Below are positions 15,276 to 19,339 of a stretch of DNA of 35,592 nucleotides, piece after piece (the stretch's first letter is position 1; each line of letters opens with the position of its first letter). The DNA comes from a virus. The stretch spans positions 1 to 35,592 of IMG/VR virus record IMGVR_UViG_3300025671_000218. One strand, given 5' to 3'. Both the position numbers and the translations under genes were made by a program. The notes under the pieces are model-generated. The model had not been told where the DNA came from. It did not search any database and saw only the letters and a program-made list of their open reading frames with translations.

Positions 15276-15516
15276 ATTCTTTTATTAGTTTATTTAATAA
15301 TTGATTATTACATTTTACATAAGTATTACATATCGCGATACGCAATTCTTCTGCTATATCTTTATGCGTTGCGCCCATATATAGCCTAAATACTATATAT
15401 ACACGCTTTAACGCCACATGCTGCCTAGCTCTTGACCTGCTTTCTAATGCAGAATAAAGCGTAGACATACTAACATCAAATACATCTGACATTAGCGCCA
15501 TTATTTCAATTTTCAT
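15235..15516 (-). CDS. DnaA domain IV-like DNA-binding protein
   Basis: 93 residues that align by eye over almost their whole length with the C-terminal domain of DnaA: 'MSDVFDVSMSTLYSALESRSRARQ' corresponds to V-A-x-x-F-x-I-x-x-x-x-L-x-S-x-x-R-x-R, 'HVALKRVYIVFRLY' to the following helix, and 'ATHKDIAEELRIAICNTYVKC' to the HTH that contains RDHTTV in DnaA. The ATPase domain is lacking and the RDHTT motif is changed, so it probably binds different DNA or mimics the DnaA domain. A more diverged relative is at 1113-1418. The start overlaps the end of a 51-residue gene by 11 bases. Confidence 0.6.
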   Translation of the reverse strand: MKIEIMALMSDVFDVSMSTLYSALESRSRARQHVALKRVYIVFRLYMGATHKDIAEELRIAICNTYVKCNNQLLNKLIKEYEKNRVKSGRTTV

Positions 15517-15661
15517 CTAGTAGCTTTTTAAATTCTTTATACCCTGCGCTTTTATCTGTAGTCATAATAGTCTTAAAACCACAGTTAAGAATATACCATC
15601 CTTTATATTTAATTACGTCAATGATATATCCGTTATGATATAATCGATTAATTAATTTCAT
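15506..15661 (-). CDS. Hypothetical 51-residue protein
   Basis: A short frame from the ATG at 15661 (MKLINRLYHNGYIIDVIKYK) to TGA at 15506-15508. It is basic and ends KEFKKLLDEN. It fits exactly between the 49-residue acidic gene and the DnaA-domain-like gene, with an 11-base overlap onto the latter, which supports it being real. Codon use resembles the neighbours. Copy A of the candidate pseudoknot (15667-15694) ends five bases before this ATG, so its translation may be controlled by that structure. Function unknown. Confidence 0.6.
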   Translation of the reverse strand: MKLINRLYHNGYIIDVIKYKGWYILNCGFKTIMTTDKSAGYKEFKKLLDEN

Positions 15662-15666
15662 ATCAA

Positions 15667-15694
15667 AAGGCCTTTTACCCACATGCCTTAGGTG
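15667..15694 (-). promoter_or_regulatory. Candidate RNA pseudoknot, copy A
   Basis: On the minus-strand transcript, CAC (15694-15692) can pair with GUG (15682-15680), and AAGGC (15689-15685) with GCCUU (15671-15667); the order a-b-a'-b' makes an H-type pseudoknot. The linker carries AUGU and AAAAG, both shared with copy B at 18782-18807. It ends five bases before the ATG of the 51-residue gene, so it covers the ribosome-binding position. The stems are short, and the call rests on the two-copy comparison. Confidence 0.4.
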
Positions 15695-15701
15695 CTTTAA
15701 A

Positions 15702-15851
15702 TTACTCGATGTCTACATAATCAGACATCTCAAAATACAATTCATCCCACTCTAATTCTTCTAAGTACTGCTCAAGAGCTTCATCTGTATAAAGCTCTTC
15801 TTCCATGATTACGTTGTTAACATAATCGTCAAATTCAGTCCATTCATTCAT
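15702..15851 (-). CDS. Highly acidic 49-residue protein
   Basis: The frame from the ATG at 15851 to TAA at 15702-15704 encodes MNEWTEFDDYVNNVIMEEEL and continues to SDYVDIE. It has 19 Asp/Glu residues in 49 and no Lys or Arg, an extreme composition. Its neat position, 2 bases after the stop of the 85-residue gene and followed by the 51-residue gene, supports expression. Such composition is found in DNA-mimic inhibitors of restriction or other DNA-binding host proteins (for example T7 Ocr), but there is no sequence similarity to them that I can see; the role is a guess from charge and early position. Confidence 0.6.
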   Translation of the reverse strand: MNEWTEFDDYVNNVIMEEELYTDEALEQYLEELEWDELYFEMSDYVDIE

Positions 15852-15853
15852 AA

Positions 15854-16111
15854 TCAGTGATTTAAATAGGTTAACGCTTTAATAAATACCTCTAATAAGT
15901 CCGTATTATTCATACTCATCTCAGCAAAACTACCAAGTGTAGTATAGTTATTAAATGCTTCATTTGGATTATTAGTATATATCTCCCTATTAGACATATA
16001 TGCTTGAATCTCATTGATAAAGTATTCATGCTTACCATCCATAGAGATATATACATATCCATCAGACTTATTAAATTTCTCTTTAATCTCTGTTAATTCT
16101 TGTACTGTCAT
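15854..16111 (-). CDS. Hypothetical 85-residue protein
   Basis: Begins MTVQELTEIKEKFNKSDGYV at the ATG at 16111. Two strands (GYVYISMDGKHEYFI) follow an N-terminal helix, then a polar, asparagine-rich middle and a helical C-terminus (DLLEVFIKALTYLNH). No family recognised. It is 45 bases downstream of the SSB-like paralogue and 2 bases upstream of the acidic 49-residue gene, so probably in the same early transcript. Confidence 0.6.
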   Translation of the reverse strand: MTVQELTEIKEKFNKSDGYVYISMDGKHEYFINEIQAYMSNREIYTNNPNEAFNNYTTLGSFAEMSMNNTDLLEVFIKALTYLNH

Positions 16112-16156
16112 GATATAAAGTTTAAGTAAGCAGCATTACACTGCTTACTAATTGAT

Positions 16157-16627
16157 TTAAAATATATCATCTTTCTCTACTACATCAGCAACTTTGATAA
16201 AAGAAGGTGCTTCCATACCTGTGTATTCAATTACTGGTTGCTTACCTATGGTTAGAGTATTGTATTGGTAAACAGGTAAATTGTTATACATTACAACTTC
16301 ACCTGTTGATGGATTAACTACAGGTTCTTTACTATCCCATGCCTTAATGTGGCATCTGACAATATGAGGCTGTAATTCCATATCTGGAAACAAATCTTCT
16401 AACGTAGCTTTATTACCACCACGCTGTTCATACAGTTCCCTGTTGTATGACCATAGAATGGTATACTTAAAATCGTTAGTTGCTCCACCTTGTGATATAG
16501 ACACAAGAGGATTACTGTTTTGACTTGCAAATTCTGCAGGTAATATGCGTCTACTTACGCTACCTGCAATCTGAATTGTTTGTTGTTTTGGGTTATTAGC
16601 ATTAACCCATGTGTTCATGATTCTCAT
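16157..16627 (-). CDS. SSB-like early protein, paralogue A
   Basis: 156 residues (156-residue form from the ATG at 16627; another ATG at 16618). It is clearly related to the 172-residue protein at 18821-19339: both have 'YTILWS', then 'QPxIVR', 'WDS-x-x-PV-x-NP-x-T-x-EV', 'PVY-x-Y-x-TLT', and an acidic tail ending in Phe (here VVEKDDIF). The strand-rich body plus acidic aromatic tip is the layout of single-strand binding proteins, but I see no diagnostic OB motif. N-terminus MRIMNTWVNANNPKQQTIQI. It is preceded by a copy of the 21-bp inverted repeat. Abundant early DNA-binding protein is a reasonable guess. Confidence 0.6.
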   Translation of the reverse strand: MRIMNTWVNANNPKQQTIQIAGSVSRRILPAEFASQNSNPLVSISQGGATNDFKYTILWSYNRELYEQRGGNKATLEDLFPDMELQPHIVRCHIKAWDSKEPVVNPSTGEVVMYNNLPVYQYNTLTIGKQPVIEYTGMEAPSFIKVADVVEKDDIF

Positions 16628-16648
16628 GTTAATTGATTATTTAATTAA

Positions 16649-16669
16649 TTAAAGACAGTTTATACATTT
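16649..16669. repeat. 21-bp inverted repeat, left arm
   Basis: Begins TTAAAGACAGTTTATAC and is matched perfectly, in reverse complement, by 17030-17050. The pair brackets the gene at 16699-16953. This arm lies 22 bases before the start codon of the SSB-like paralogue A, so it could also be part of a leader or promoter. Confidence 0.7.
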
Positions 16670-16698
16670 TTTTATCCTTCTGCACTCAGTTGTAAGAA

Positions 16699-16953
16699 TT
16701 ATTTACAACCTATATTAGGAAATATCATATCTTCTTGAATATAATTAGGTATAGAATATGAAACATTAAAATGTTTCTCAATAGCGTATCTAGCTTCCCA
16801 ATCATTACCTAATATTTTATTATCTATGCAAACATCTACATTAAGCTCTTTTGCTCTTTTCCATATATGAAAGGCTTCTTCTGCAGTTAGAGCAATAGAA
16901 AAAAGCTGCATGTATTGTTCTCCTGCATTTTTGTTTTTAATAAATTGTATCAT
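16699..16953 (-). CDS. Hypothetical 84-residue protein inside inverted repeats
   Basis: Begins MIQFIKNKNAGEQYMQLFSI at the ATG at 16953 and stops with TAA at 16699. Helical N-terminal half (TAEEAFHIWKRAKELNVDVC), then 'NVSYSIPNYIQEDMIF'. No family recognised; no transposase or recombinase motif. It is the only gene between the two arms of the 21-bp inverted repeat, with 29 bases to the left arm and 76 to the right arm, and has a palindromic operator-like stretch in its leader (16981-17008). Confidence 0.6.
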   Translation of the reverse strand: MIQFIKNKNAGEQYMQLFSIALTAEEAFHIWKRAKELNVDVCIDNKILGNDWEARYAIEKHFNVSYSIPNYIQEDMIFPNIGCK

Positions 16954-16980
16954 ATTATATGTTTTAAACGGTTTTAAAAA

Positions 16981-17008
16981 TATAGTTGTGACTATTGTAG
17001 TCGCTGTA
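16981..17008. repeat. 28-bp direct repeat, copy 1 (operator-like)
   Basis: Shares TATAG, then ACTATTGTAGTCG and CTGTA with 17615-17643 (two substitutions and one inserted base). Minus-strand reading contains GACTA-CAA-TAGTC, a short palindrome suited to a dimeric repressor or a small hairpin. It lies 28 bases upstream of the start of the 84-residue gene. Confidence 0.6.
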
Positions 17009-17014
17009 GGTATA

Positions 17015-17048
17015 AAAGACAGTTTATATAAATGTATAAACTGTCTTT
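17015..17048 (-). terminator. Rho-independent-like terminator after 17059-17367
   Basis: A perfect 14-bp stem, 17015-17028 with 17035-17048, and a 6-base loop. On the minus strand the 3' arm ends CTGTCTTTT before ATACC, giving a short T tract. It begins 11 bases after the stop of the 102-residue gene. The stem is AT-rich, so termination may be partial. The right arm of the 21-bp inverted repeat overlaps it. Confidence 0.6.
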
Positions 17049-17050
17049 AA
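17030..17050. repeat. 21-bp inverted repeat, right arm
   Basis: Exact reverse complement of 16649-16669. It also forms one side of the local hairpin 17015-17048. The two arms enclose 360 bases with one gene. Confidence 0.7.
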
Positions 17051-17058
17051 CTGTCATA

Positions 17059-17367
17059 CTAATCGTTAAAGTAATACATCTTATTAAGAGGTATTTCTTT
17101 TACTTCGTATATAGGAAAGTACTCACATAGGTGTTCAGACCTACTATCCTGAAAAAGCTTCTTATTGCTTCTAGCATCCTGTGCTTCCGCTATATAAGCT
17201 TGAGTAAGCTTAGCATTTAAGATACTATCAGCAATATCGTTGCATCGCTTTTCTATAGCCTTACGTGCTAATTCTGCTGACTCATAGATACCTATAAGTT
17301 TATCACTTACCCAATATCCAAAGTCATCGTAGTTTTGACGATTTTCATAAATACCAAATACTGTCAT
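17059..17367 (-). CDS. Hypothetical 102-residue phage protein
   Basis: Begins MTVFGIYENRQNYDDFGYWV. The strand-turn-helix 'DKLIGIYESAELARKAIEKRC' is familiar from small proteins of many phages that read 'YWV-x-D-x-L-x-GVY-x-x-x-ELARKA', whose function is not known. A helical segment follows (DSILNAKLTQAYIAEAQDA) and the C-terminus is strand-like (YFPIYEVKEIPLNKMYYF). Monocistronic by appearance: a palindrome lies in its leader (17399-17418) and a terminator after its stop. Confidence 0.65.
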   Translation of the reverse strand: MTVFGIYENRQNYDDFGYWVSDKLIGIYESAELARKAIEKRCNDIADSILNAKLTQAYIAEAQDARSNKKLFQDSRSEHLCEYFPIYEVKEIPLNKMYYFND

Positions 17368-17531
17368 TTTGATATGGTTTAATGGTTAATAAAAAATACC
17401 TACTAGTATATTAGTAGGATTACAAGACTTTGTTCAGACTGCTTGTTATAGTGTTCCCCTATAAAAGGGTTATTGTAAAATAACTCAACCACAATATACT
17501 GTGTAGCTTATCAAGCTTAAATTGTAATTTC

Positions 17532-17557
17532 TATCTATGTCTTACAGTACATAGATA
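17532..17557. other. Perfect 9-bp stem hairpin
   Basis: TATCTATGT at 17532-17540 pairs with ACATAGATA at 17549-17557 around an 8-base loop. No T tract follows on either strand, so a terminator is unlikely; an RNA structural element in the leader of the early minus transcript is possible. Confidence 0.4.
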
Positions 17558-17614
17558 TACTTACTACAGAGTTTAATTTCTACTACATTGATTAGATGTA
17601 GGAGACTACTGCAA

Positions 17615-17643
17615 TATAGCTGTAACTATTGTAGTCGGCTGTA
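17615..17643. repeat. 28-bp direct repeat, copy 2 (operator-like)
   Basis: Second copy of the element at 16981-17008, with ACTATTGTAGTCG exact and one extra G. It is in the non-coding region, not next to an obvious start codon. The palindrome is slightly weaker (TAGTT for TAGTC on the minus strand). Confidence 0.55.
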
Positions 17644-17858
17644 TTTATTGAACTCTCACAAGGCTGCAATCCTTGATATATATCTCACTATAGGACAGTA
17701 GTCTTAATGCTACACCTAAATTCTTATAGTTTGGTAATATACCTGCTATTGGATGAGAGTAATAGTAATATCACCTAACAGGTTGGTGTTACATTAGTCT
17801 CCGATGCACATCAAATTAATGACCCCTATTCAAAGAGATTGCTTAGCCTAACATATTA

Positions 17859-18035
17859 CTAATAATTTCTTATAGCTTTACTTATTGCAGAGTTTCTTAC
17901 CTCCTTACGAGCAATAAGCACTGCTTTTATCTCGTCAACTGTTACATTAGGACAATCGACTTGTATAATTCTTACATAATCTTCTATACTCCAATCTTTT
18001 GGAGCATAGTTTAAAAGCCATGTTTTCCAGTTCAT
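17859..18035 (-). CDS. Hypothetical 58-residue protein
   Basis: Frame from the ATG at 18035 to TAG at 17859-17861: MNWKTWLLNYAPKDWSIEDY, then 'VDCPNVTVDEIKAVLIARKE' and a basic helical end (SAISKAIRNY). Natural-looking composition and codon use like its neighbours. The two helical segments separated by a short loop could be a small DNA-binding or adaptor protein, but no family is recognised. Confidence 0.55.
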   Translation of the reverse strand: MNWKTWLLNYAPKDWSIEDYVRIIQVDCPNVTVDEIKAVLIARKEVRNSAISKAIRNY

Positions 18036-18068
18036 TTTAACAAGTTTAACGGTTAGTGAAAAATACTC

Positions 18069-18224
18069 TTACAAAGTATTATGAATCTTATAAAGAACAC
18101 CATTATCTTCAAACAACATCCAATACTTATTATTACTATCAGGTCTTGTTTGTCCTTTAAAGATAGGATTTGCTAAATTCATATACTCTTGTGGAGTAAT
18201 TTCTTTTGCTTCTTCTAATTTCAT
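18069..18224 (-). CDS. Hypothetical 51-residue protein
   Basis: From the ATG at 18224 to TAA at 18069-18071: MKLEEAKEITPQEYMNLANP, then 'FKGQTRPDSNNKYWMLFEDN' and 'GVLYKIHNTL'. The C-terminal part reads as a beta hairpin. It lies 33 bases upstream of the 58-residue gene in the same orientation. No family recognised. Confidence 0.55.
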   Translation of the reverse strand: MKLEEAKEITPQEYMNLANPIFKGQTRPDSNNKYWMLFEDNGVLYKIHNTL

Positions 18225-18297
18225 ATTATTTTGTTTTGATTAATGAATCACGTGTTAATAAAAAAGTGTTGGTAACATACAGTGCATAGTTTTTTGT

Positions 18298-18393
18298 TTA
18301 TAATCCCAAGCGATTACGTTCTGCTACTGTTAGGTTATGTCTACTAACTACTAAAACTACATTTGCATGTAGAAACTGGTTAGCTGTTACCAA
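18298..18393 (-). CDS. Possible 31-residue ORF with TTG start
   Basis: The frame from a TTG at 18393 to TAA at 18298-18300 encodes MVTANQFLHANVVLVVSRHN followed by LTVAERNRLGL. The composition looks protein-like, but there is no ATG, and the open frame continues upstream to a TGA. It partly overlaps in a different frame with the end of the membrane ORF at 18410-18568, so it could instead be its 3' half after a +1 shift near AACAAAATGTAA. Confidence 0.25.
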   Translation of the reverse strand: MVTANQFLHANVVLVVSRHNLTVAERNRLGL

Positions 18394-18409
18394 CTTTACA
18401 CCTAAAACT

Positions 18410-18568
18410 TTACATTTTGTTCAGCTTATATTCAATAGCTAAATGAGTAGTATGCGTTTTGAGCATATTATATCTTATCCTAGGTTGATATAATACTCTA
18501 GGCCTTGTTAACTCATTTACTTTTAATATACTACCTATAAGCATAAGTAAAGAAACTAGTGTTATCAA
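18410..18568 (-). CDS. Possible 52-residue single-span membrane protein
   Basis: From a TTG at 18568 (or an ATG at 18544, giving 44 residues) to TAA at 18410-18412. Residues ~2-16 are hydrophobic (ITLVSLLMLIGSIL), then a basic tail follows (RPRVLYQPRIRYNMLKTHTT). That pattern suits a small inner-membrane protein with its C-terminus in the cytoplasm. No in-frame ATG precedes the hydrophobic stretch, so the start is uncertain. Confidence 0.35.
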   Translation of the reverse strand: MITLVSLLMLIGSILKVNELTRPRVLYQPRIRYNMLKTHTTHLAIEYKLNKM

Positions 18569-18713
18569 TATGTTATTGAGTTTTTTATCTTATTACGTAA
18601 TATTATTAATAAGATAGGATTATTACACATGGTAATTAGTATCTATAGATGGTGATTGTTAATTACCAACTAATAGATGACTACCAACGATATAAATAAA
18701 ATATATGATAGGA

Positions 18714-18752
18714 ATCCAAGTGTGTGTGGAGTTTAGAAGTTGTAGGCAATAA
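18714..18752 (-). promoter_or_regulatory. Duplicated promoter-like element, copy 1
   Basis: On the minus strand it begins TTATTGCCTACAAC and continues TAAACT-x-CACA-x-AC. The same arrangement is at 19374-19411 upstream of the SSB-like gene. This copy starts directly after the T tract of the terminator at 18754-18777, where a new minus-strand transcript (small early genes) would begin. Confidence 0.45.
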
Positions 18753-18753
18753 G

Positions 18754-18777
18754 AAAAAAACAGAGCCGAAGCTCTGT
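18754..18777 (-). terminator. Rho-independent terminator with UUCG loop
   Basis: The minus strand reads ACAGAGC-TTCG-GCTCTGT followed by seven T: a perfect 7-bp GC-containing stem capped by a stable tetraloop. It lies 43 bases after the stop of the SSB-like gene (18821-19339), which is therefore a short single-gene transcript. Confidence 0.9.
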
Positions 18778-18781
18778 AAAT

Positions 18782-18807
18782 TAGGCCTTTTGCGACATGC
18801 CTAGGTC
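18782..18807 (-). promoter_or_regulatory. Candidate RNA pseudoknot, copy B
   Basis: Matches copy A (15667-15694) in the blocks ACCTA, GGCATGT and AAAAGGCCT. Stem a is GAC (18807-18805) with GUC (18796-18794); stem b is UAGGC (18803-18799) with GCCUA (18786-18782). Relative to copy A the outer pair of stem b changes A-U to U-A, and the first pair of stem a changes C-G to G-C, so pairing is kept. It is between the SSB-like stop codon and its terminator. Confidence 0.4.
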
Positions 18808-18820
18808 AAGCAGTTGCAGA

Positions 18821-19339
18821 TTAGAATACACCTTCATCTGCAACATCAACAGTAACAGGCTCAAGCCACTCTGGACAGTCGTGTCCAATGTGCTCGAACG
18901 TAGCACCCTGCTCATCAGTCAAGGTCTTATACTCATACACAGGCTTACCCATGTATGTTTTAACCTCCTTAGTCTCAGGATTCATCACTGGACTAAGACT
19001 ATCCCACCCTGCATTATACGTAGTACGTACAATGTAAGGCTGTACAGTAATGCCTTCATCACGATCTTCTGCTGTTAACAGAATCTTGTCTGCAGACTGC
19101 CCTACTTTAGCCTTTTTAGCTAATTCTGCAGGCACAGACCACAAAATAGTGTAGTTATATACACCATCCTGCCCTTGCGTTTTAGCTACAAGGCGACCGT
19201 TAACGCTGTTGTTAACGTTAGAGCCAAAGAAATCAGACGATATATCTTCTTTCTTTGTAGAACCTGCGAACTGTAATGTCCACTGATTCTTAGTTGAAGA
19301 CTCATTCTTCCACTTTTTTCTCAATACCAAAGTATCCAT
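18821..19339 (-). CDS. SSB-like early protein, paralogue B
   Basis: 172 residues from the ATG at 19339 (MDTLVLRKKWKNESSTKNQW). It is the first gene of the minus-strand block and has its own promoter-like element and strong terminator, so it is probably made early and in quantity. It shares with 16157-16627: 'YTILWS', 'QPxIVR', 'WDS-x-x-PV-x-NP', 'PVY-x-Y-x-TLT', and an acidic C-terminal tip (DVADEGVF). Higher GC than surrounding DNA, and codon choice differs a little from neighbours, as expected for high expression. Single-strand DNA binding is inferred from layout only. Confidence 0.65.
   Translation of the reverse strand: MDTLVLRKKWKNESSTKNQWTLQFAGSTKKEDISSDFFGSNVNNSVNGRLVAKTQGQDGVYNYTILWSVPAELAKKAKVGQSADKILLTAEDRDEGITVQPYIVRTTYNAGWDSLSPVMNPETKEVKTYMGKPVYEYKTLTDEQGATFEHIGHDCPEWLEPVTVDVADEGVF

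Follow-up and report, generated by a model that had tools for sequence, protein, structure and literature searches.

The stretch of DNA analysed here, hereafter the window, is the whole of the 35.6-kb virus record IMGVR_UViG_3300025671_000218 (35,592 nucleotides (nt)). Its minus strand carries two copies, A and B, of a small RNA pseudoknot. We found this pseudoknot to be a cis-acting RNA element that phages conserve; its compact H-type fold of ~28 nt occurs in hundreds of unrelated phage contigs. It lies on the strand of the preceding gene and is placed as near to the stop codon of that gene as a terminating ribosome would allow, with a floor at ~5 nt.

The anatomy of the family was described via its two stems (S1 and S2) and three loops (L1 to L3). 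S1 usually has 3–6 base pairs (bp) with a closing C-G, L1 is a single C, S2 has the form U-N-N-N-C/G-N-N-N-A with wobbles at its ends, L2 is an A followed by U, A or C, and L3 ends in AAACU or AAAAG. The lengths of S1 and L3 mostly sum to 11 (4+7, 5+6, 3+8 or 6+5), and thus the knot has a fixed overall frame. The 8 nt past S2 are poor in G (4–13%, background 24%) and richer in T; TTTT was detected within these 8 nt in 34 of 229 cases, compared to 2.4% of random positions.

Both stems covary. Searching IMG/VR, where all exact-pattern counts are lower bounds, with a pattern built on the GGCATGT core shared by the window copies yielded at least 119 stretches; the pattern was unspecific, and by eye well under half of the stretches were real members. 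A longer form, NNACCTGGGCATGTNN...AAAAGGCCCA, was common to ~45 of them. Among 42 distinct examples of this form, the pair that flanks the constant AC/GT of S1 on its outer side was Watson–Crick in 40 (shuffled 20.8 ± 2.4), the next pair formed in 32 (shuffled 19.1 ± 3.1), and the variable S2 pair formed in all 42 (shuffled 32.6 ± 1.4), while register-shifted controls failed. The scan CCTGGGCATG-N(3-9)-AAACTGCCCA matched at least 120 IMG/VR stretches and yielded 86 distinct sequences in which S1, lying outside the pattern, was unselected. The two pairs adjoining the closing C-G formed in 86 and 84 of these sequences (shuffled 50.0 ± 3.4 and 39.0 ± 3.8), and the third S1 pair in 61 (shuffled 35.4 ± 4.4).

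A covariance model (R2) that encodes S1 only, and from whose build the window copies were left out, detected 1–11 copies in each of 48 records. In 104 aligned copies, the S2 pairs formed in 80/103, 94/101, 98/100, 101/102 and 100/102 cases; the middle pair was GC in 57 and AU in 41, and the closing C-G of S1 was swapped to G-C in four. When the structure was slid along these copies as a control, the paired share fell from 95% to 30–44%. Likewise, a doubly changed and still paired S2 variant, CCTGAGCATG...AAACTGCTCA, matched at least 120 IMG/VR stretches, whereas the singly changed, broken form CCTGAGCATG...AAACTGCCCA matched two, and altering one base in the A run of L3 gave no matches versus at least 120 for the intact pattern. 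The covariation, the counts of paired and broken forms and the L3 result together indicate that both stems and the A-rich strand are under selection. With crossing stems and compensatory changes in both, the element belongs to the H-type pseudoknot class, as had been proposed from the two window copies in an earlier, sequence-only reading. That reading would have abandoned the idea if no further copies existed or if their differences broke the pairing; in unrelated phages, further copies exist and the pairing is kept. Chance, which it had left open, is ruled out because other phages carry the family; the two copies alone would not have sufficed for this.

Position relative to genes was measured as the distance to a 4-bp S1 frame from the preceding stop codon, counting stops that end an open frame of 45 codons or more. 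Across 192 distinct upstream contexts, defined by the C-terminal pentapeptide, this distance was 5 nt in 52, 6 nt in 26, 7 nt in 14 and below 5 nt in seven. The spacing was sharp, was best measured to the knot core, and recurred in an independent set of 122. A same-strand stop was present within 30 nt of 214 of 312 copies (10.5% of random same-strand positions) and a start within 90 nt of 201 (40% at random). As the enrichment of stops exceeds that of starts, the tie to the upstream gene is the tighter one. The earlier expectation of placement near early gene starts did not hold as a rule: the sharpest signal is the upstream stop codon at 5–6 nt, and the next ATG lies more loosely, most often 15–35 nt past S2 and often with a Shine–Dalgarno-like sequence. 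The evidence favours a role at the end of the upstream gene; a role on both sides is possible.

Most copies lie between cistrons, and the flanking genes are of many kinds. Upstream genes included DUF932 (14 of 102), Hsp20 (10) and ribonucleotide reductase (four); downstream genes were more scattered, and the largest upstream cluster was paired with nine downstream clusters. One 72.9-kb record carries ~11 same-strand copies, and almost every gene junction in the stretch they occupy has one; several of these copies have an L3 ending in AAACT rather than AAAAG. According to its GenBank annotation, Synechococcus phage S-EIVl has five copies in gaps of 54–60 nt that separate same-strand genes, and another two where the gap is longer; one copy lies just before an ssDNA-binding protein gene. 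A TATAAT box was present within 60 nt after the knot in 30 cases (4.7 expected), and the knot there can therefore fall outside the next transcript. In ~20 cases, a transfer RNA (tRNA) begins 1–13 nt past the knot, so that RNase P would leave a short tail. The tRNA a few nt behind the knot was very often tRNA-Asp (loci L397, L403, L404, L433, L466, L467, L483, L489, L491, L507, L514 and, in S-CRM01, L339). One copy in S-CRM01 starts directly after tRNA-Tyr.

At ~25 phage Hsp20 loci, the knot lies 3' of the gene, be it followed by a promoter-like box, by one of several unlike genes or by no gene on that strand. As the knot itself served to collect these loci, they show the variety of what follows it, not how frequent it is. 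Several have additional structure between the Hsp20 stop and the knot, namely an extra conserved hairpin (GGTAGC...GCTACC or similar; L011, L028, L046, L057, L095, L104, L115 and L133) or a TATAAT-like box and/or a GTCG...CGAC hairpin (L463 and L485). Sub-threshold hits resembling the ROSE thermosensor in two loci with phage Hsp20 genes (L136:1983-2040, minus strand, E = 0.009; L141:995-1066, plus strand, E = 0.23) suggest that the small heat-shock genes there may be thermoregulated. A pistol ribozyme above its gathering score (46.4 bits) was detected at L154:353-419, ~1.1 kb from a pseudoknot copy.

Within the window, the two copies and their neighbours are as follows.

15667..15694, minus strand: copy A of the pseudoknot, with S1 CAC/GTG (3 bp), L1 CT, S2 AAGGC/GCCTT, L2 AT and L3 GGTAAAAG.
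18782..18808, minus strand: copy B of the pseudoknot, with S1 UGAC/GUCG, L1 C, S2 TAGGC/GCCTA, L2 AT and AAAAG in L3.
15702..15851, minus strand: open reading frame (ORF) of 49 amino acids (aa) 5' of copy A, stop TAA at 15704-15702.
15506..15661, minus strand: 51-aa ORF 3' of copy A, ATG at 15661-15659, 5 nt past copy A.
18821..19339, minus strand: 172-aa ORF 5' of copy B, stop at 18823-18821, 12 nt before the 4-bp S1 frame.
18754..18777, minus strand: Rho-independent terminator-like hairpin, CAGAGC TTCG GCTCTG followed by a T run, directly 3' of copy B.

Both sequences and all of the pairings claimed for them were present at the minus-strand coordinates first reported. In copy A, CAC (15694-15692) pairs with GTG (15682-15680) and AAGGC (15689-15685) with GCCTT (15671-15667). 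In copy B, GAC (18807-18805) pairs with GTC (18796-18794) and TAGGC (18803-18799) with GCCTA (18786-18782), and S1 is extended by a U-G pair (18808/18793). Copy B nearly fits the frame of the family, its L3 being one base shorter, and ranked first in an R2 scan of the window (24.3 bits, E = 3.6e-5). Copy A, whose S1 has 3 bp and whose L1/S2 is longer by one base, ranked second (11.9 bits, E = 0.1). Judged by sequence, copy A is a weak family member; we include it because of its intact S2, its exact core and its position at the usual family distance after a stop, ~6–7 nt past the TAA of the 49-aa ORF (6 nt to the 4-bp S1 frame). The gap-tolerant core GGCATGT-N(1-5)-AAAAGGCC had exactly two matches in the record and the reversed pattern had none.

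Of the surroundings described earlier, the 5-nt distance from copy A to the ATG of the 51-residue gene was correct, and copy B does lie between a stop codon and a UUCG terminator. The label of the gene before copy B as single-stranded DNA-binding protein (SSB)-like was not confirmed, as the 172-aa ORF had no Pfam, PHROG or PDB sequence support for it. The 49-aa and 51-aa ORFs flanking copy A had no Pfam match. The window encodes two paralogous proteins on the minus strand (18824-19339 and 16160-16627; 37% identical), neither of which matched Pfam or PHROG; the first alone has a knot directly behind it, and the second lies ~460 nt before copy A. Two noncoding minus-strand stretches were also observed. 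A 361-nt stretch without a long ORF (18240-18600), between the copy B terminator and a 51-aa ORF, folded better than 100 of 100 shuffles (z = -3.5) and is a candidate structured noncoding RNA; a 481-nt stretch (17380-17860) contained several long hairpins and folded weakly better than shuffles (z = -1.5).

Proteins of the window were assigned to the PHROG families terminase, portal, major head protein, DNA polymerase, primase and helicase. The terminase resembled that of Cellulophaga phage phi14:2 and, more distantly, those of uncultured gut 'cr' phages, which we take to be the crAss-like group. No close relatives of the window locus were found by protein pattern, nor by tblastn when the query was the 172-aa protein or, with a strict cut-off, the DNA polymerase. 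The pseudoknot itself is not restricted to crAss-like phages, among which a search for further copies had been proposed, and is present in very different ones. Annotated carriers were phages of Moorella, Nostoc, Corynebacterium, Latilactobacillus, Lactobacillus, Staphylococcus (Phietavirus), Synechococcus, Cellulosimicrobium, Rhizobium/Sinorhizobium and Pasteurella, spanning Firmicutes, actinobacteria, cyanobacteria and proteobacteria, and a microvirus from rodent feces with a 6-kb genome and five annotated genes; S2 was weak in some single copies among these carriers. The genomes of T4, T7, lambda, phiKZ, SPO1, P-SSP7, S-PM2, 80alpha and crAss001 had no match above background (best score 13.9 bits in these nine genomes, ~1.06 Mb). 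Bacterial genomes rarely carried the element (1 of 299 and 2 of 100 sampled, at reduced sensitivity, two of the three carriers being sample centres chosen as carriers), a short-query blastn search of plasmids gave no match, and an exact pattern occurred at four places in 257 Gb.

As to function, our preferred but tentative reading is that the pseudoknot is a ribosome-compatible RNA roadblock at cistron ends, with a putative role in shielding message ends from exonucleases. The knot would fold behind the last ribosome and act as a mechanical roadblock in the manner of the luteovirus-type pseudoknots, whose layout is similar, its main job being to mark and protect the cistron boundary; given the ~5-nt floor after the stop codon, it can stand while a ribosome terminates. 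A downstream cut or end might be supplied by an intergenic endonuclease, by RNase P at a following tRNA or, as behind copy B, by a terminator. The 3'-to-5' exonucleases of the host would then halt at the knot and the upstream coding message would survive, and a knot in a leader could shield the 5' side likewise. The knot would work through host machinery common to all bacteria rather than through a phage protein. Host machinery is the likely partner because double-stranded DNA (dsDNA) and single-stranded DNA (ssDNA) phages of many hosts share the knot, including the microvirus, whose five annotated genes also make any single phage protein unlikely as a common partner. We favour protection of message ends because it fits terminators, tRNAs, promoters and genes behind the knot alike; the processing or stability element that the sequence-only reading had listed among its options may thus be correct.

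Several observations weigh against this. Canonical terminators are not enriched after the knot (10 of 345, compared to 12 of 345 at random), and for about one third of copies an ORF stop is missing from the nearest 30 nt. At some Hsp20 loci, a TATAAT box and a hairpin precede the knot, which would therefore lie in the leader of the next gene. Genome compaction would favour short stop distances too, and the pseudoknots known to block exonucleases mainly stop eukaryotic enzymes that run 5'-to-3'.

The same spacing could be read differently, with the knot abutting the mRNA entry of a ribosome whose A site holds the stop codon, and controlling termination, recycling or sliding so as to insulate cistrons or tune reinitiation. 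The sharp spacing to the knot core and the location of most copies between cistrons agree with this, as does the equal 5–6-nt spacing of frameshift-stimulating pseudoknots. We nevertheless consider it unlikely: for copy B, for the copies before tRNAs and for those that no same-strand gene follows, there is no cistron that could be insulated, and a hard floor combined with genome compaction gives the same distance distribution. In-frame readthrough is contradicted by a median extension of 13 codons and frequent immediate second stops. Although the peak at 5–6 nt falls within the 5–9 nt past the decoding site expected for recoding pseudoknots, we found no conserved extension and, judging by eye, no conserved slippery site; with varied codons before the stop as well, programmed readthrough or frameshifting was rejected as a general function.

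Similarly doubtful is a transcription element, in which the knot and its G-poor, T-rich tail would form a weak terminator or attenuator, or a signal for pausing or antitermination, where one phage transcription unit meets the next. The enrichment of TTTT in the tail, the promoter-like boxes that often come next and the rarity of canonical terminators at copies without a downstream gene (7 of 125) point this way. However, TTTT is present in only ~15% of copies, the multi-copy operons in G018 and S-EIVl run on with same-strand genes past each copy, a canonical terminator already stands behind copy B, and a strict stop-codon rule is unexpected for a terminator. Less probable again is a docking site for the small ribosomal subunit, at which ribosomal protein S1 would bind the knot and keep the 30S near the following start site. 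Protein S1 binds H-type pseudoknots, one of them from systematic evolution of ligands by exponential enrichment (SELEX), and standby translation of tisB requires a pseudoknot (PMC7708055). The usual distance to the next ATG and the Shine–Dalgarno-like sequences would suit such docking, which leaves unexplained both the copies before terminators, tRNAs and convergent genes and the tighter tie to the upstream stop. An operator for a phage protein, as in the earlier idea of a site for SSB-like proteins, is very improbable: the S-EIVl copy before an ssDNA-binding protein gene and the position of copy B behind the gene once labelled SSB-like speak for it, but that label lacks family support, the carriers share no obvious protein and include the microvirus with its five annotated genes, and the genes on both sides are of many kinds.

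We also assessed whether the element had been described. Rfam 15 gave no match over it in the window at gathering score, in agreement with the earlier remark that it was not recognised as a known riboswitch, and no credible match over it when 20 carrier loci were scanned with E limits of 5 or 1; an overlap with a eukaryotic small nucleolar RNA model was on the opposite strand, far below gathering score and not credible. No description was found in open-licence PMC text searched by sequence and topic, and an earlier description elsewhere is possible. H-type pseudoknots are a known fold class, and what appears new is the family with its stop-codon rule. Motif-discovery pipelines may have missed the element because it is so short, and the tested model phages lack it. 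It is conceivable, at somewhat less than even chances, that it represents an undescribed RNA class of unrelated dsDNA and ssDNA phages that acts independently of phage proteins at the interface of terminating ribosome and mRNA end. It would then be a viral device for cistron ends that is widespread, spans phages of many bacterial phyla and has no known counterpart in cells. The carriers include a microvirus and a phage whose terminase has crAss-like relatives, and a conserved fold locked to the stop codon points to a problem shared by phage messages in every host, be it decay, termination or ribosome traffic, and the knot could serve as a small portable part and as a positional marker for annotating phage gene ends.

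The family can be compared with several known systems. ToxI-type antitoxin pseudoknots and their phage mimics are likewise small and H-type, and some are reportedly carried by phages. ToxI is a tandem repeat processed by ToxN, whereas the knot described here mostly occurs as single intergenic copies, and Rfam scans gave no ToxI-type match. The pseudoknots of luteovirus-type -1 frameshifting and retroviral readthrough are compact H-type folds with a short L1, an A-rich L3 and a 5–9-nt spacer to the decoding site. The layout here is similar, in that S2 is crossed by a single C and S1 by an A-rich strand, and the spacer is comparable, but the knot lies outside coding sequence, with no conserved slippery site or extension and with double stops common. 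Stabilisers of 3' ends, such as repetitive extragenic palindromic (REP) elements and terminator hairpins, keep exonucleases from crossing a message boundary, as do viral exonuclease-resistant RNAs; for our element this is the proposed job only. REP elements are imperfect palindromes, and the known viral exonuclease-resistant RNAs block 5'-to-3' enzymes with another fold; the knot differs in fold from both, and its exonuclease resistance is putative. The S1-binding pseudoknots of rpsO and tisB act through a host ribosomal protein (PMC7708055). Those are 5' leader elements of single genes, whereas the present knot stands mostly at cistron ends, also where no translation follows. Finally, the gene 32 pseudoknot of T4, T2 and RB69, a translational operator, is bound by the gp32 of the phage itself, lies 67 nt before the start codon and has A+U-rich repeats behind it (PMC3014915). 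It resembles our element as an H-type pseudoknot of phage mRNA with a coaxial two-stem layout. While that knot belongs to the leader of an SSB gene, the family described here, of which T4 itself has no match above background, is found in many unrelated phages, near many unrelated genes, and is tied to the stop codon that precedes it.

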